Shown: positions 30,359-38,088, counted from the stretch's first letter. The stretch: 64,000 nucleotides of DNA from Arcobacter roscoffensis (GCF_024267655.1 NZ_CP100595.1:1612001-1676000), one strand, 5' to 3'. Notes: generated by a model from the letters alone, not told the origin. Translations and numbers: made by a program.

Positions 30359-31282
30359 TTGTTATATAAAGACTTAAAAGACAGCATAAAATCATTGGGA
30401 TTTTTATCAATTGAAGATTTTGTGCAATACATCGGTGTAACACCATCTGATGTTTTAGAATGGGAAGAAAAAGATCAAGTACCATATACTATATCTTTAA
30501 TTATTCATTTACTAAAAGGTGAAAAAGAATTACCAAATAATACAACTCTAGATAATTTAGTAGAAGAGTGTTTACCTTTAGCTGAACTATTAGAAGAAGC
30601 TTCATCTTTTCCTCATAAATTAGAAGAAATGTTTTTATTACAAAAAGAGCTTAATGACTCTACGAATGGTAAAAACTGGGAGCTAGGAAGAAACAAGTTT
30701 GGCAAAGAAATAAACTGGCTTAGATGTATTCATATGGAAGTTGCTGAACTTATAGACTCAACTCCATGGAAACACTGGAAAAATATCAATTCTGAACCAG
30801 ATATGAAGAATATACATGTAGAATTAGTTGATATTTGGCACTTTTTAATGTCATATATTTTACAAGAAACAAATGTTCCTAAGGCTGTATCTTTAGTAAA
30901 TACTCATTGCATTTATGAAGCTGTTGTTGATGTAGATGTAAGGGTTATGGTGAAAGAAGCAGAAAAACTATCTTACATAGCTTTAGCAATTGAAACAAAT
31001 AACATGCCTTCATTTAGTGGTGTTGAAAGATTTATTGATCAATTCTTTAGATGTTGTAAGGTATCAGGTTTATCATTTACTTGGCTTCAAAAACTTTACA
31101 TTGGAAAAAACTGTTTAAATAAATTTAGACAAGACAATGGATATAAAGAAGGAACATATATAAAAGAATGGAATGGAAAAGAAGATAATGTAATCATGGT
31201 TTCACATTTAGAAACAATGGATAATGTTAGCTTTGAAATTTTATATAATAAACTTGAAGAGTCTTATAGCAAATGTAAATAA
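30359..31282 (+). CDS. dut: Dimeric dUTP diphosphatase with N-terminal extension
   Basis: 307 residues. All-alpha dimeric dUTPase (MazG-like fold) converting dUTP to dUMP. Metal-binding Glu127/Glu130 in HMEVAELIDS, TPWKHWK, and Glu155/Asp158 in VELVDIWHFLMS. The core begins near residue 85. The preceding 80 or so residues (DFVQYIGVTPSDVLEWEEKDQVP) look like a Cro/C1-type helix-turn-helix and are absent from the Campylobacter enzyme as I know it. Start is a TTG at 30359, decided by TTAGGAGACAAG just upstream. Confidence 0.9.
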   Translation: MLYKDLKDSIKSLGFLSIEDFVQYIGVTPSDVLEWEEKDQVPYTISLIIHLLKGEKELPNNTTLDNLVEECLPLAELLEEASSFPHKLEEMFLLQKELNDSTNGKNWELGRNKFGKEINWLRCIHMEVAELIDSTPWKHWKNINSEPDMKNIHVELVDIWHFLMSYILQETNVPKAVSLVNTHCIYEAVVDVDVRVMVKEAEKLSYIALAIETNNMPSFSGVERFIDQFFRCCKVSGLSFTWLQKLYIGKNCLNKFRQDNGYKEGTYIKEWNGKEDNVIMVSHLETMDNVSFEILYNKLEESYSKCK

Positions 31283-31285
31283 TTT

Positions 31286-31318
31286 TATAGCTAAAAAGGG
31301 TTTCCCTTTTTAGCTATA
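31286..31318. terminator. Bidirectional terminator
   Basis: Perfect 15-bp stem (TATAGCTAAAAAGGG / CCCTTTTTAGCTATA) with a 3-nt loop. It lies between the convergent dUTPase and carbonic-anhydrase genes and includes the stop codon of the latter. Confidence 0.8.
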
Positions 31319-31810
31319 ATCATTTTTATAATCTACATAATGTCCAGCGTGTTTAATTAAACCTTCAACATCCTCATCCGTTAGCTGTTTTACAACTTTT
31401 GCAGGACTTCCCATAATTAAACTTTTAGGTGGGAACTTTTTACCTGATGTAACTAAAGAATTAGCTCCAACAATTGAACCCTCACCAATTACAGCATCAT
31501 CAAGAATAGTAGCACTCATACCAATCAAACAATTATCTTCAATTTTACAACCATGAAGCATTACTTTGTGCCCAATAGTAACATTATCACCAATAATCGT
31601 AGAAGTATGTGTATCTGTATGAATCATAGATAAATCTTGAACATTTGTATTTTTACCAATTCTAACTTTATTTACATCTGATCTAATTACACATTGAAAC
31701 CACACAGAAGAGTTCTCACCAATTACTACATCACCAATTATATCAGCACTTGGAGCTACCCAAGCAGATGAATCAATTTGAGGATAGTGCTCTTTAAATT
31801 TTAATATCAT
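31310..31810 (-). CDS. Gamma-class carbonic anhydrase-like hexapeptide protein
   Basis: 166 residues forming a left-handed beta-helix (repeats such as ADIIGDVVIGENSSVWF and VTIGHKVMLHGCKIEDNCLIG). The metal histidines of the gamma-CA/YrdA family are present (MIHTDTHT and IGHKVMLHGC). Family members form trimers. Some hydrate CO2 and others, such as YrdA/PaaY, have other or unknown activity. The gene stands alone, with start AGGAAGCAAT-ATG. Confidence 0.92.
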   Translation of the reverse strand: MILKFKEHYPQIDSSAWVAPSADIIGDVVIGENSSVWFQCVIRSDVNKVRIGKNTNVQDLSMIHTDTHTSTIIGDNVTIGHKVMLHGCKIEDNCLIGMSATILDDAVIGEGSIVGANSLVTSGKKFPPKSLIMGSPAKVVKQLTDEDVEGLIKHAGHYVDYKNDYS

Positions 31811-31871: not shown

Positions 31872-34457
31872 TTACTTATTTGCACTATATTTTAAAATTA
31901 TTGGTTTACTATAATTTGGAACATCATCATATGTAAATATTGCATAATATTTATCAATATCCATTGCTCCAAAATCATCATAAGTATAAACATCTTTACC
32001 TGCATAAAGCTTTTGCCCATCATAAGAAGAGTAAGGAGCTCTAAATGGATTTTTAATGACCTTTACTCCTACAAAATCAATATCTACTGGATTTTCCCAT
32101 GTGATTTTCACTTTTCCATTATCTTCAAATATTTTTGCATTTTTAACTTGAGCTAGTGGACTTCTTCGCTTAGGGATATGCTCTATTATAAGTTTTGGAG
32201 AAAGTGAAATATTTTTAATTTCCCAAGAAACTTTTTTGTCTTTCAATACTTTTTTAGATGAAGTAGGCTTTAAAACAAAAGATACATTTGTTTTATCCTT
32301 TACCTTTTCATTTAAAATTTTCTCTGAGAATGTATCAAACATAAAGTATTGAGTCTGATTATTCTTAAGCTCAGTTGCACTTACATCATAACCTATATTT
32401 TGGATAATCTCTCTATTTGCAATGCTCTCATAAGATTTTTCTATATTGTCATCTACAAATTCTATATGAAATCTGATATCATCTTTTATGTATATTTTTG
32501 TTGAGTTCAACTCAAAGTATGCTTTTGTAATCATACTGCTTTCATAAGGAGGCAAAGAGGCTAAATTAAACTCAAAAGTAGAATATATTTTTGATCCATT
32601 TTCATCAAAACCTGCTGTTATTTCATCGTCTTTTATTTCATTTTTACTTATTGTATGAACATTTGTTGGATATAAAGCTGTAATTTCAGGTTTTAAAGTA
32701 TATGTTAGTTCAAGTCTTGGCCTATAAGGTAAACCAAAACCAAATTTCCCATAACCTATATCCCATTGCATCATTTGTCTTGATCTTCCAATTCTAAGCT
32801 CTTTTGGACCTTCAACTCTTAAAATGATTTTATTATCATGAATAGATTTCTTAAGGAATTCACACTCCATTGCTGATAATTCCCAAGTTCTCCAAATACC
32901 TTGAGTTAATTGATGAGATTGAGTAGGTCTTCCTATATATTTAATAAGTTTCATGTTTTCAACATCATCAAAATCAGTAATATCACCCATTTGTGTTTGA
33001 TCAACAATTGCCACATTCCACTCACCATATTTTTCAATAGTAGTTGAAACTCTATTTATTGGGTATAAATTAAATTCAGCATGTTTAATCATTGCGCTTT
33101 GAGGTAATGAGTTTACATTTATGGTAATTACAGCATATGAAACACCTTTATTCTCATCAACACCAACAAATAATGAGTTAACACCAAAATGTTTGGCATT
33201 GTCATTGATATTTTCAGATACATAACCTGTTTCATTTTTACTAGCGTAATATGTTCTGCTAAACTCATCATATTCTAAATTTGTTTTTATTTTAACTTGT
33301 GGACAATAGGGTGATTTGATACCTGTTTTACTATTTACAGCTCTTATATTATAGTAATAATCTTTATTTGAAAAAAGATTAATATCATTAAATTCTAAGT
33401 TTTGTGTTCTAGCAATTAGATTATTATCATTACAAAAAGATTTATCTTTTAAACTTCTATATATTTCAAAAAATACATTTTCTTGCTTTTCATACTCCCA
33501 TTTAAGGTTTACATGGGAAGAACCAATTTCAACTACTTCAAAAGATTCCACTCTTTTTAAAGCAAAATCACTATAATTTGGAACTTCTGATACTGTACTT
33601 AGTAATGCAGGAATATGTTCTCTTAAATGCTCGTTCATATCATCCATATAATCACTTATATTTCTAGTACCAACTTCCACTACTGTTGAAATAATACCCT
33701 TTGAATAGTAAAATTCTCTACCACTTCCAGAAATAAGCTTCGCAGGAGGTTTTCCTTGATGAATACCATATTCTCTTCCAGATATTTTTCTAATTTCTTC
33801 TGCCATATTTGCACATATTGTATTCATGTCTGTCGTATCAATTGTATCTTCGTGCCTAAAATCATGAGCAGGGAAAAATACATTTCCTTGAGAATGGTAA
33901 TCTAAAGCAATAGTTATATTTTCATGGCTTTCTACAAAATCTTTTAAAGCTTTTGTTTCTGGCTCTGAAAAAGGCTGTGGACCACCATATACATTTGATG
34001 TAGTAAGACTTGATTTTATAAAACCAATAGGAAAGTTTCTATTTAAATCAACTCCATAAGTTCCATCAGCGTTTACACGTCTATTTTTTCTCCAGAAAGA
34101 AAAATGATTTCTTGAATACTCATATCCATCAGGATTTGCACAAGGAACCATATAAATAGTTGTATTTTCTAAATATGACCTAATTTTAGGGTCACTTTCA
34201 TAATTTTCTAAAACATAATTTGCAAACTCTATAGCCAATTCATGTCCAACCCATTCTCTTGCATGTATAGTTCCTGTATAAAATAATGCAGGTCTAGAAG
34301 AAGCGGTTTTAATATCTTTAGAAATTGTAATAACATTTATATCTCTTTTTTCCCACGTTTGTCCTATAGAGTCCAAACTAAAATAAAGAGGATATTTTTT
34401 TTGTAATTCTTTAAATATATCAGTTGACTGAGTATATGATCTATAAAGTTGTTTCAA
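31872..34457 (-). CDS. M14 zinc carboxypeptidase with C-terminal beta-sandwich domains
   Basis: 861 residues. The M14 domain (about 5-290) has zinc ligands His65, Glu68 (IHAREW) and His188 (YHSQG), Asn139-Arg140 (DLNRNF) for the substrate carboxylate, and catalytic Glu261 (VVEVGT). Then a fibronectin-III-like domain (about 303-392), two DNRLRE-like beta-sandwiches (about 395-575 and 580-755), and a final FnIII-like domain. Despite these surface-protein-like domains there is no signal peptide. Start TTG at 34457 with AGGAGAATAAG, directly after the ATP-grasp gene. It probably trims C-terminal residues from the product of the two ligases encoded upstream; that role is inference. Confidence 0.9.
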   Translation of the reverse strand: MKQLYRSYTQSTDIFKELQKKYPLYFSLDSIGQTWEKRDINVITISKDIKTASSRPALFYTGTIHAREWVGHELAIEFANYVLENYESDPKIRSYLENTTIYMVPCANPDGYEYSRNHFSFWRKNRRVNADGTYGVDLNRNFPIGFIKSSLTTSNVYGGPQPFSEPETKALKDFVESHENITIALDYHSQGNVFFPAHDFRHEDTIDTTDMNTICANMAEEIRKISGREYGIHQGKPPAKLISGSGREFYYSKGIISTVVEVGTRNISDYMDDMNEHLREHIPALLSTVSEVPNYSDFALKRVESFEVVEIGSSHVNLKWEYEKQENVFFEIYRSLKDKSFCNDNNLIARTQNLEFNDINLFSNKDYYYNIRAVNSKTGIKSPYCPQVKIKTNLEYDEFSRTYYASKNETGYVSENINDNAKHFGVNSLFVGVDENKGVSYAVITINVNSLPQSAMIKHAEFNLYPINRVSTTIEKYGEWNVAIVDQTQMGDITDFDDVENMKLIKYIGRPTQSHQLTQGIWRTWELSAMECEFLKKSIHDNKIILRVEGPKELRIGRSRQMMQWDIGYGKFGFGLPYRPRLELTYTLKPEITALYPTNVHTISKNEIKDDEITAGFDENGSKIYSTFEFNLASLPPYESSMITKAYFELNSTKIYIKDDIRFHIEFVDDNIEKSYESIANREIIQNIGYDVSATELKNNQTQYFMFDTFSEKILNEKVKDKTNVSFVLKPTSSKKVLKDKKVSWEIKNISLSPKLIIEHIPKRRSPLAQVKNAKIFEDNGKVKITWENPVDIDFVGVKVIKNPFRAPYSSYDGQKLYAGKDVYTYDDFGAMDIDKYYAIFTYDDVPNYSKPIILKYSANK

Positions 34458-34458
34458 C

Positions 34459-35961
34459 TTATTCTCCTATTTTTAATCTAGACTTTAACTGAACTAGTTT
34501 ATTCTTTCCTATTCCATCAATCTGCTTTAATTCATCTATTGTAGTAAAGCCATCAATAGTATCTCTAAAGTCTAAGATAATTTTTGCTAACTTTGAGCCT
34601 ATACCTTTGATTTTTCTTAAAGTATCAACATCAGCACTATTTATATCAATTCTCATATCATCAATATTATCATCCCATACTTTTAAAAGCTGTTCATCTA
34701 TTGACTCTAATTCTAATAAATCACTAGTATCAGTTACAATATTTTCTTTTAAATACTCATGTATTTCTAATGCAAGTTCTTCTTCCATACCATGTAAAGT
34801 CATAATATCAGTTAATGAAGCACAATTTAAATTTATTTTATCAAGGCTAAATTCATTTTTTAAAGGCTTATTGTTTAATTCTTTTTTTATTGGTAGGTCT
34901 TTTGGATTAATAGAAGCAGGATAATCTAAATCATTTGACTGTTCAGTAATTTCCATATCAAAATCATCTTTTGGATCATTTATGTACCAAGTTCCATCAC
35001 AAGAAGGCTTATATTTGCTAAAACCAATATGTCTCATAGTTCTTAGTAATGATGAATCAATTTTTCCTAACTCTTCCCATGAGAATAGGGGAACATGTGG
35101 CATACCAAATCTTCCATTTGAGAAGTCCCACATTAAGTATTGACCAATCCAATCTCTAATATAAGGGAAGGCTGCAAAAGCTGTTGCACACTCTAATATA
35201 TAAGGTTTATCAGTTTTAGCACAAATAGCAATATCACAAGCCCAATATTCTGCTTTTGCTGCTTTACTTGCTTCTACTGCTAATTCTAAGGCATTCATAG
35301 GTACATTTTCATATGACATTGAACCACCCTGAGAAGTATTTGTAATCCATTCACCTTCTCCTGAAAATCTCCAAAATGCACAAATTGGTTTATGTCCTAT
35401 TAACATAACTCTTAAATCCCCTGAATATTTTAAATCAATCGCATCTTGAGTATAAATAGGACTATATTTTTTCTCATCTAATAGTTTTTTCGCTTCTTTA
35501 TAAGTATCAGCTTTATGCACATAATATCCACCATAATTTGATGGCCCATATGATCTTTTAATAATTTGAGGATATGAAGCTTTATTTTTTAAGTAGTTAA
35601 AACCTTTTTTATTATCATAAAAAATTTTAGTTTTTGGAATACTAAGATTGTTTTTCTCACAAAATAGTGTTACATTCTCTTTTGATTTGTTTGAGAACTG
35701 TGTTTGAAGTGATGGCACAAACCTAACATGTGGCAACTCTTTAGATATTTCTACAAAAGTATCATAAGCAGTTGCAGGTATATTACCAATTAGAATATCA
35801 ATCTTCTTTTTTTTAACCTCTTTAATAAATCTTTCTTTATCATTTTTCCAGTGATATACAACTTCTTCAATTTTATCAGGCCAACCTTTGAAATTTGAAT
35901 GATCAAAGAATCTTAAAACATAATCAAGATATAAAAATCCTAACTTTGGTAATTTCTGCAT
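34459..35961 (-). CDS. ATP-grasp protein fused to two helix-hairpin-helix units
   Basis: 500 residues. Residues 1-300 are an ATP-grasp fold (IIKRSYGPSNYGG nucleotide loop, GDLRVMLIGHKPICAFWRFS, Asp243 and Glu257 as probable metal ligands). The usual ExN triad reads ECA at Glu257-Ala259, so the conserved Asn is lost and activity may be altered. Residues 376-430 and 438-498 are ComEA-like helix-hairpin-helix units (INLNCASLTDI; INSADVDTLRKIKGIGSKLA; IDGIGKNKL). An ATP-grasp/HhH fusion is very unusual. No signal peptide. The operon also holds a second ATP-grasp and two peptidases. Confidence 0.85.
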   Translation of the reverse strand: MQKLPKLGFLYLDYVLRFFDHSNFKGWPDKIEEVVYHWKNDKERFIKEVKKKKIDILIGNIPATAYDTFVEISKELPHVRFVPSLQTQFSNKSKENVTLFCEKNNLSIPKTKIFYDNKKGFNYLKNKASYPQIIKRSYGPSNYGGYYVHKADTYKEAKKLLDEKKYSPIYTQDAIDLKYSGDLRVMLIGHKPICAFWRFSGEGEWITNTSQGGSMSYENVPMNALELAVEASKAAKAEYWACDIAICAKTDKPYILECATAFAAFPYIRDWIGQYLMWDFSNGRFGMPHVPLFSWEELGKIDSSLLRTMRHIGFSKYKPSCDGTWYINDPKDDFDMEITEQSNDLDYPASINPKDLPIKKELNNKPLKNEFSLDKINLNCASLTDIMTLHGMEEELALEIHEYLKENIVTDTSDLLELESIDEQLLKVWDDNIDDMRIDINSADVDTLRKIKGIGSKLAKIILDFRDTIDGFTTIDELKQIDGIGKNKLVQLKSRLKIGE

Positions 35962-35970
35962 TTTCTCCCC

Positions 35971-36873
35971 TTATTTTTTTGTTTTTTTATCAATTAAGTT
36001 TGCGATTAACTCTATTTTTTTATCGTTAAAATCAAGTCCAAGTTTTTCTTGTTCTGGTGTTGCAAAAGCTGGAATTCCATTTACTTCTAAAACAATATAT
36101 TCTTCTTTTTTTCTATCATAGATAATATCAACACCTGCAATATCAAGTCCTGTAACTTTAACAGCTTTTAGTGCCAAATTGATTACATCATCATTTGGTT
36201 CTCTAACAAAAACACTTCCTCCACTGGTAATATTTGTTTTCCAACTACCTTCACTTGCTTTTCTACCATAGCAAGCAACATATTGACCATCTACAATATC
36301 AACTCTATAATCAGTATTATCATAATCAATAAATTTTTCAACATAAAAGTATCTTAAATCCATTTGATTCAAAAATGGAATTAACATGTCTAAAGTTTCA
36401 CGATTTTCTATTTTTGTAAGACCAACTCCACCCCAACCGTCAGTTGGTTTGTATACCATCTTACTCCATTTTTTCATTATTTCTTGAAGATGGTGTGTGT
36501 CATCTCTATGACAAAGCTTATAATCTGCTGTTTGAATCTTATTGCGTCTTAAAAGAAAAGATGTATGAAATTTGTCTTCTGTTAATTCAAATGCATCGTA
36601 AGAATTAATCATAGGTATCACATGATTTAAAGCTTTATACAAATACATTTGATATTGAGTTTGTTCACCCGCATTATAAGAAAAGAATAAGTCTAATTTA
36701 TCAAGTTTTATACCGTCGTATAATATGTGCCCATTCTTTGCTATTGCATTTCTTAAGTTTATATCAGCAATAACATCTATATCTCTTTGTTTAAGTTGCT
36801 TAATTAGTTTTTCTTGTATCTTATCTCCACCACCATTTTGGTATAACCACATACCAATCTTTCTATTCCCCAT
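35971..36873 (-). CDS. RimK-like ATP-grasp ligase
   Basis: 300 residues, complete ATP-grasp: YKPTDGWGGVGLTKI (Lys142 and glycine loop), DYRVDIVDGQYVACYGRK, SWKTNITSGGS, and the metal triad Asp249 (GVDI), Glu263 and Asn265 (VLEVNGIPAF). Such enzymes form an amide bond through an acyl-phosphate, adding an amino acid to a carboxylate (RimK, glutathione or coenzyme F420 ligases). Start has AAGGGG. It is 10 nt before the fused ATP-grasp gene and 19 nt after the M20 peptidase gene. Acceptor and donor are unknown. Confidence 0.92.
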   Translation of the reverse strand: MGNRKIGMWLYQNGGGDKIQEKLIKQLKQRDIDVIADINLRNAIAKNGHILYDGIKLDKLDLFFSYNAGEQTQYQMYLYKALNHVIPMINSYDAFELTEDKFHTSFLLRRNKIQTADYKLCHRDDTHHLQEIMKKWSKMVYKPTDGWGGVGLTKIENRETLDMLIPFLNQMDLRYFYVEKFIDYDNTDYRVDIVDGQYVACYGRKASEGSWKTNITSGGSVFVREPNDDVINLALKAVKVTGLDIAGVDIIYDRKKEEYIVLEVNGIPAFATPEQEKLGLDFNDKKIELIANLIDKKTKK

Positions 36874-36891
36874 AGTACCCCTTCTATATAG

Positions 36892-37986
36892 TTAATTATT
36901 ATTTTGATAATAATCTAAAATTTCTGTCATCATTTGTATTCTTTGCTCAAATGAACTTTTAAGTGCTCGCTCTTTTAATGTATGATCACCATAGCCATAT
37001 GGACCAAAACCATCAAGTGTTATAACTCCACAATTAGAAACTATATTTGCATCACTAACTCCACCTCTATGCTCTTTTGGAATTTTTAGTTTTGTTAGTT
37101 CTTCTAGAAACTTTAAATAATCTAATTGTTCTTGGTTTTCTTCCATTACATCTCTTTGAATTATTCCATCAAGATGACAAGCAGAACCTTTTACAAAACT
37201 AGTATTTGAAATTTCTTCTACAGCTTTGATAACTCTTTGTTTTTCACTTTTCTTATCAAACCTAAATTCAAACATCATTTCAAAATGAGGTGAAACTGTA
37301 TTTATCCCAATTCCTCCCTCACATTTTCCAACATTGATTATAGTTCCTTTATTTATATCCATAAGTTCACTATATTTTTGAAGTTTGATAGCCCCTTCTA
37401 AGTTTGCATTTATTCCTTTTTCATAAGAAGTCCCTGCATGTGCTGCTTTCCCGTCAATTTTTACTATATATCTTCCAACACCTTTTCTTGATGTTACAAG
37501 TTCTAAATTTTTACCTGCTGCTTCAAAAACAAAACAATAATCATAATTTTTTGCAATACTAGAACTTACTTCTTTTGAATCATCACTTCCTGTTTCCTCA
37601 TCACTAACAAGTAAAAAATCAATATTAAAGATTTGTCCATTTTTTTCATATATATTCCGTAAAGCTTGTAAGGCAACAATATTGCCACCTTTCATATCAC
37701 AAACTCCAGGACCATATATCCAATTATCATCTTCATCCCATTTTTCAAAATAGTCTTGAGGAAATACTGTGTCATTGTGACCAAGCAGAAGTATTTTTTT
37801 GCCAGTTTTTTTTGTGGATTTAAATAAAAGATGGTCACCTATGAACTCTCTTTTATATGTAGTTGTTGAAAACCCAATATTTTCAAGCCATGTTTTCATT
37901 TGTAAACCAACCTTATCTACACCACTTTTATTTGTAGTATAAGAGTTAATTTTTACTATTTTCTTAAGATCTTCTAAATAGTTCAT
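36892..37986 (-). CDS. M20-family metallopeptidase (CPG2/ArgE/DapE-like)
   Basis: About 364 residues, a di-zinc amidohydrolase. Metal and catalytic residues visible: LLLGHNDTVFP, PGVCDMKGGN (bridging Asp), SDEETGSDDS (catalytic Glu pair), VFEAAG, the dimerisation-domain His in GKAAHAGTS, and the final ligand in GYGDHTLKER. Cytoplasmic, no signal peptide. I prefer the ATG at 37986 (MNYLED); an ATG at 38019 is in frame. It heads the ligase/peptidase operon. The closest activity is probably hydrolysis of an N-acyl or glutamyl amide. Confidence 0.92.
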   Translation of the reverse strand: MNYLEDLKKIVKINSYTTNKSGVDKVGLQMKTWLENIGFSTTTYKREFIGDHLLFKSTKKTGKKILLLGHNDTVFPQDYFEKWDEDDNWIYGPGVCDMKGGNIVALQALRNIYEKNGQIFNIDFLLVSDEETGSDDSKEVSSSIAKNYDYCFVFEAAGKNLELVTSRKGVGRYIVKIDGKAAHAGTSYEKGINANLEGAIKLQKYSELMDINKGTIINVGKCEGGIGINTVSPHFEMMFEFRFDKKSEKQRVIKAVEEISNTSFVKGSACHLDGIIQRDVMEENQEQLDYLKFLEELTKLKIPKEHRGGVSDANIVSNCGVITLDGFGPYGYGDHTLKERALKSSFEQRIQMMTEILDYYQNNN

Positions 37987-38088
37987 TTTTTCACTTTTTT
38001 GGATTATATAAATACACATAAAATTATATCCTAAAAAAGTTACATTTTGGATACTATGAAAAAATAGTTTTTAGATTTAATTTGTAGA

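Follow-up and report, generated by a model that had tools for sequence, protein, structure and literature searches.

A conserved bacterial cassette of RimK-like ATP-grasp proteins and M20 and M14 carboxypeptidases with a possible role in reversible glutamylation

A four-gene ligase/peptidase locus

Four genes encoding an M20 carboxypeptidase, two RimK-like ATP-grasp proteins (AG1 and AG2), and an M14 carboxypeptidase form a neighbourhood that is conserved across bacterial lineages. We tentatively read this cassette, with a confidence that falls a little short of even, as an autonomous cytoplasmic glutamylation/deglutamylation (make-and-trim) module whose acceptor would be encoded elsewhere.

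In the window, that is, the whole 64,000-nt stretch of Arcobacter roscoffensis DNA that was analysed, the locus spans positions 31872-37986 (Table 1). The ORFs were found as the first-pass annotation had described them, as four close-set genes on the minus strand, but the intergenic gaps are 18, 9, and 1 nt rather than 19, 10, and 1 nt. Pfam domains comprise M20 and M20_dimer in the M20 protein, RimK in both AG1 and AG2, HHH_3 in AG2, and Peptidase_M14 in the fourth protein. For the M20 gene, the ORF list also permits an upstream ATG at 38019. With dN/dS values of 0.06-0.29 for M20, AG1, AG2, and M14 in comparison with four relatives, all four genes are under purifying selection. The gene directly downstream (31310-31810, minus strand) encodes a gamma carbonic anhydrase-like hexapeptide protein and is local Arcobacter-type synteny, not a member of the cassette. 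A dUTPase_2-family gene (30359-31282, plus strand), whose product has an N-terminal extension of ~85 residues resembling a helix-turn-helix domain, also adjoins the locus and is kept there in Arcobacter-type genomes.

Table 1. Genes of the four-gene locus, in window coordinates
Feature	Position	Strand	Start and domain assignment
M20 carboxypeptidase, CPG2-like	36892..37986	-	ATG at 37986, matches the start of homologues
AG1, RimK/MptN-like ATP-grasp ligase (predicted)	35971..36873	-	Pfam RimK; NCBIfam
AG2, divergent RimK-like ATP-grasp protein	34459..35961	-	Pfam RimK and HHH_3
M14A-type carboxypeptidase, 861 aa	31872..34457	-	TTG start; Pfam Peptidase_M14; NCBIfam DNRLRE in tail

Distribution, gene order, and mobility

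All four genes are present in 30 of the 298 Campylobacterota genomes sampled, and partial sets in five (G218, G037, G256, G105, and G061). Counted singly, AG2 occurs in 32 of these 298 genomes (the G037 copy being a broken remnant), M14 in 32, AG1 in 31, and a high-scoring M20 in 32, and for all five gene pairs computed the co-occurrence yielded Fisher p < 1e-35, a value uncorrected for phylogeny. The first-pass annotation had named as a refutation that the four genes usually lie apart, and its reading withstands this test, as they occur contiguously and almost all-or-none.

A search of genome contigs confirmed 273 AG2 relatives, and the loci of the best 80 of these, which include Desulfuromusa, Geopsychrobacter, and Thiomicrorhabdus, were analysed for gene order. 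Among the loci of these best 80 of 273 relatives, M20 neighbours AG1 in 63 cases, of which 56 have the two genes co-directional and 7 have them divergent; AG1 neighbours AG2 in 66 and AG2 neighbours M14 in 68. Most junctions either overlap slightly or span no more than a few tens of bases. The order M20-AG1-AG2-M14 is also found in Desulfuromonadales and Thiomicrorhabdus, and the four genes recur on a Photobacterium megaplasmid, where M20 is divergent and ATGA-type stop/start overlaps join AG1, AG2, and M14. This copy (L112:6714-13094) lies on a 2.1-Mb replicon of Photobacterium sp. DA100, a plasmid according to its listing, and the PLSDB table gives no annotation for the four genes. In the Gammaproteobacteria sample, the only match among 274 was the seed itself; likewise, strong matches in the sample of the Desulfuromonadales seed's phylum were limited to the seed, the remainder being generic RimK-like proteins.

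The cassette occupies unrelated chromosomal sites. In Arcobacter-type genomes, it is flanked by argG on one side and the gamma carbonic anhydrase gene on the other, and in Sulfurimonas-type genomes it lies downstream of rimM-trmD-rplS; considered as candidate cassette genes, these recurrent neighbours were rejected as local synteny only. No further conserved cassette gene was found among neighbouring ORFs of at least 80 aa, and the junctions within the cassette are mostly too short to hold a gene, such as the precursor peptide gene that would be expected next to the ATP-grasp genes in a graspetide (RiPP) pathway. In two genomes of one genus (G009 and G129), AG2 has been relocated between efp and dnaE, yet it has been kept, and M20, AG1, and M14 are still together in G009 (L135) and, judged by coordinates, in G129. 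The solitary AG2 genes (L134:8000-9418 and L136:7619-9040) begin ~30 nt past efp. In another genome (G256), M14 is the sole remaining cassette gene and is found at the usual argG/carbonic anhydrase site. In a quick AG2 tree, Thiomicrorhabdus and one Desulfuromonadales sequence group together within the Campylobacterota, a placement that horizontal transfer would produce; two further Thermodesulfobacteriota sequences branch at other points. Since its gene order recurs at unrelated chromosomal sites, the cassette is autonomous and has probably been transferred.

The two carboxypeptidases

The catalytic domain of the M14 protein (residues 1-290) is followed by a C-terminal tail with an fn3-like, DNRLRE-type beta-sandwich, and the DNRLRE-type tail is common to all 25 aligned homologues. 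Such fn3/DNRLRE tails are typical of extracellular proteins; no signal peptide was found in the M14 protein of the window, and its aligned homologues share the same start. Assignment to M14A was based on the zinc ligands HxxE...H and the equivalents of R71, R127, N144, R145, and E270 (CPA numbering), all of which are present: H65, E68, and H188 (Zn) as well as R67, R123, N139, R140, and E261 are invariant in 61 homologues. An ungapped alignment to CPA4 places R247 at the position of CPA residue 255, which is Arg in 60 of the 61 homologues and Lys in one. Residue 255 sets the specificity: CPA has a hydrophobic residue there and CPB an Asp, whereas the Arg of carboxypeptidase O (CPO) confers a preference for acidic C-terminal residues (Glu/Asp) (PMC9925722). 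The Arg at this position suggests that the M14 enzyme is acidic-specific, similar to CPO. The position corresponding to CPA Tyr248 is variable among the homologues. The AlphaFold model (pLDDT 84) matches the folds of CPA, CPO, and CPT, with low confidence in the pocket loop 236-245.

The M20 residues H81, D83, D108, E141, E142, E166, and H346 (numbering follows the longer ORF, which starts at 38019) are invariant in 64 homologues, and the best solved-structure match is carboxypeptidase G2 (CPG2; E 7.9e-28). In M20 enzymes, a Glu as metal ligand marks carboxypeptidases and aminoacylases and an Asp marks dipeptidases (PMC6271292); the specificity-marking ligand E166 is Glu in 64 of 64 sequences. 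From these residues, the protein is predicted to be a CPG2-type carboxypeptidase with a complete two-metal site.

The two ATP-grasp proteins

AG1 looks fully active as a ligase, as its nucleotide-binding Lys and D/E/N metal triad are complete: K101, K142, R190, N214, a GG motif, D249, E263, and N265 are invariant in 88 homologues. Its closest curated profile is MptN (E 6.9e-44), although its 150 bits do not reach the cut-off of 350, and it also scores below the cut-offs of TIGR00768 (131.8 vs. 143.4 bits) and the S6-ligase equivalog (68 vs. 331); a weak similarity to cyanophycin synthetase was found as well. R190 and N265 align to R189 and N262 of the Pseudomonas enzyme RimK_PA, which contact the bound glutamate (PMC10092738). 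On the acceptor side, RimK_PA has R64 and S68, which are not conserved in AG1 in an alignment read by eye, and a RimK-type poly-Glu tail would therefore not be recognised in the same way. The AG1 proteins fall into two groups, ~55% and ~75% identical to the AG1 of the window, and some loci (L050, L051, and L070) contain a second AG1-like gene.

AG2 retains D243 and E257, but its D/E/N triad is incomplete: an alanine takes the place of the third metal ligand in each of 100 homologues. This residue, A259, was matched to the Asn position by motif order and the Pfam alignment for RimK. In these 100 sequences, an invariant ECATAF motif replaces the EVN metal/substrate motif, and the Lys, Arg, NTxxGG, Asp, and Glu positions are retained. 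AG2 scores 64.6 bits against TIGR00768 (cut-off 143.4), LysX proteins match it best among solved-structure profiles, and its AlphaFold model (pLDDT 77) has RimK and LysX as best folds. Because the metal/substrate Asn is lost throughout, AG2 may be a partner protein or an altered ligase. It may even be catalytically dead, which would weaken the notion of two ligases. The first-pass annotation had credited the locus with complete motifs and two amide-forming ATP-grasp proteins, which holds for M20, M14, and AG1 with its full catalytic set, but not for AG2 with its altered metal site. It had also stressed a fusion of AG2 with a helix-hairpin-helix (HhH) domain, which proved to be optional: the lineage of the window has HhH domains at the C-terminus of AG2, but of 24 AG2 homologues only about half contain a Pfam HhH model (HHH_5 in 11, HHH_3 in 8), and Pfam detects it in neither the Thiomicrorhabdus nor the Photobacterium proteins. 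That so highly conserved an ATP-grasp protein has invariably lost a metal Asn poses a separate and sharp biochemical question.

Proposed function and alternative explanations

In the proposed glutamylation module, AG1 would join an acidic amino acid, most likely glutamate, to the C-terminal or a side-chain carboxylate of an acceptor at the expense of ATP. Three features converge on such an acidic unit: the pocket of M14, the CPG2 type of M20, and the affinity of AG1 to glutamate ligases. AG2, with its altered metal site and optional nucleic-acid-type HhH tail, might select or present the acceptor, or itself be a second ligase whose chemistry is modified. Terminal acidic residues would be cut off by the M14 enzyme, whose beta-sandwich tail would serve as a docking or chain-handling domain, and M20 would take off the last or short-chain residue. 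Here, we infer that the unit is glutamate, that addition and removal act on one acceptor, and what AG2 does. The make-and-trim idea itself had been put forward in the first-pass annotation, and its pairing of ligases with peptidases agrees with the observed co-occurrence and contiguity of their genes, but AG2, whose metal site is altered, may not be an active ligase.

The glutamylation module is favoured by the near all-or-none co-occurrence, the conserved order, and the retention of AG2 after relocation, together with M14 R247, M20 E166, and the Glu-contacting Arg and Asn of AG1; moreover, a ligase and a protease paired by the same logic are known from experiments on Pseudomonas RimK-RimB. 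Against it stand the lack of an acceptor gene in the cassette, the reading of M14 specificity from residue 255 when further pocket residues contribute and the Tyr248 position is variable, the weak M14 model at loop 236-245, a fn3/DNRLRE tail that would be odd for a cytoplasmic trimming enzyme, and the missing acceptor-side Arg64 and Ser68 of RimK in AG1. The main rival is a free glutamyl metabolite or polymer, which we consider possible but rather less likely: AG1 and AG2 would ligate an acidic oligopeptide, osmolyte, or storage polymer, from which the M14 exopeptidase and M20 as final amide hydrolase would recover the building blocks, resembling cyanophycin synthetase/cyanophycinase, carnosine synthase/carnosinase, and the NAGGN osmolyte genes. 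The absence of a protein substrate gene from a cassette that is self-contained across phyla would agree with this, as would the named host genera, which are largely marine and would suit an osmolyte, and the weak similarity of AG1 to cyanophycin synthetase. RimK and its homologue MyfB also build poly-glutamate from free glutamate (PMC8141765). However, no transporter, acetyltransferase, or regulator accompanies the cassette, the multi-domain M14 is larger than the hydrolysis of small peptides requires, and it would be futile, unless regulated, to make and degrade the same compound from a single tight operon.

The remaining explanations appear less probable still. The tail architecture of M14, being typical of secreted proteins, would suit export by an unrecognised route and action on extracellular peptides or glycoproteins, with the other three proteins modifying or protecting the cell's own surface peptides; we regard this as improbable, given the lack of a signal peptide, the agreeing starts of the homologues, the absence of an accompanying secretion gene, and partners that are cytoplasmic enzymes. 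An amino-group-carrier logic (LysX/ArgX-LysW-LysK), in which AG1 or AG2 would load an amino acid onto a small carrier protein and M20 would release the product, is very unlikely. The LysX matches of AG2 point in this direction and LysK-type enzymes belong to M20, but biosynthetic kinase, reductase, and aminotransferase genes are absent from the cassette and M14 has no place in such a pathway. We rejected it as the identity of the cassette, as the LysW model TIGR01206 has no match in the whole genome of the window, while control genomes match as expected. Hardly more credible is general peptide scavenging, or a chance neighbourhood without joint function: M14 and M20 are common catabolic families, but the joint presence and absence, the conserved order at unrelated sites, and the retained AG2 argue against it, and scavenging would not need two ATP-grasp proteins. 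The neighbourhood survey hence contradicts the option that the first-pass annotation had named as fatal to its own reading. A phage or viral origin was likewise rejected, with an AG2 relative in 0 of 2.9 million IMG/VR contigs, only distant RimK-like phage matches for AG1, and only generic PHROG matches, as was a defence system, for which no PADLOC model matched; altogether, no link to toxins, defence, or phages was found.

Reversible glutamylation is well known in eukaryotes and very few of its bacterial targets are documented. As the cassette is widespread and self-contained and its M14 is predicted to erase acidic residues specifically, it offers a directly testable entry point, whether it leads to tags on proteins or to a glutamyl metabolite in ecologically important sulfur- and hydrogen-using bacteria. 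A bolder and more doubtful extension of the glutamylation module would be a horizontally mobile system in bacteria that corresponds to the glutamylation code of eukaryotes, in which a dedicated ligase, with a pseudo-ligase or HhH targeting partner, and two dedicated carboxypeptidases might set and remove reversible C-terminal or side-chain acidic tags on specific non-S6 proteins of marine bacteria.

Comparison with known systems

Make-and-trim pairs of ligases and proteases are already known, whereas the four-family set is, as far as could be checked, undescribed: in agreement with the first-pass annotation, which knew of no such system, no description of this set at one locus was found in the literature searched, outside which lies the 2009 amidoligase survey of Iyer et al. 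RimB is unrelated to M14 and M20. In Pseudomonas, RimK-RimB (rimBK/rimABK) combines in one operon a RimK-fold glutamate ligase and a protease by which the attached glutamates are trimmed again (PMC10092738), as in the make-and-trim logic proposed here. The cassette, however, has M14 and M20 as its only peptidases and no RimB-type protease, AG1 and AG2 score below the curated RimK-family cut-offs, and the acceptor-side residues of AG1 differ; the two are not homologous as systems. Ribosomal protein S6 would be an unlikely acceptor, because the genome of the window encodes a separate canonical RimK (307 aa) elsewhere than the cassette and its S6 ends in ...SDEAAKKAN and not in Glu; for the same reasons, the RimK/S6 system was rejected as the identity of the cassette.

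The tubulin enzymes TTLL (ATP-grasp) and CCP (M14) are another known make-and-trim pair, with a glutamate ligase opposed by an M14 carboxypeptidase. The cassette differs in its bacterial setting without tubulin, its CPA-like (M14A-type) M14 with other accessory domains, and its second metallopeptidase (M20) and second ATP-grasp protein. The first-pass annotation had drawn an analogy with tubulin tyrosination, of which the ligase/carboxypeptidase logic stands, but given the acidic-specificity Arg of M14, tubulin glutamylation/deglutamylation or the Pseudomonas RimK-RimB pair is the better fit. CPO shares the CPA/CPB/CPO fold and the Arg at 255 with the cassette M14, but is a GPI-anchored digestive enzyme lacking the fn3/DNRLRE tail and ligase partners. 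CPG2, which the cassette M20 resembles most among solved structures, is a stand-alone folate hydrolase, not in an operon with ligases. MptN, the nearest curated relative of AG1, and MyfB add glutamates C-terminally, but to methanopterin and methylofuran coenzymes, which have no known use by the cassette hosts, and no M14 or M20 partner has been reported for them. Another ligase/hydrolase pair was observed in the genome of the window at L145:382-2358 (C1 near 1066757), where the gene of the canonical 307-aa RimK is immediately followed by an AstE/AspA (M14-superfamily) deacylase-like gene.
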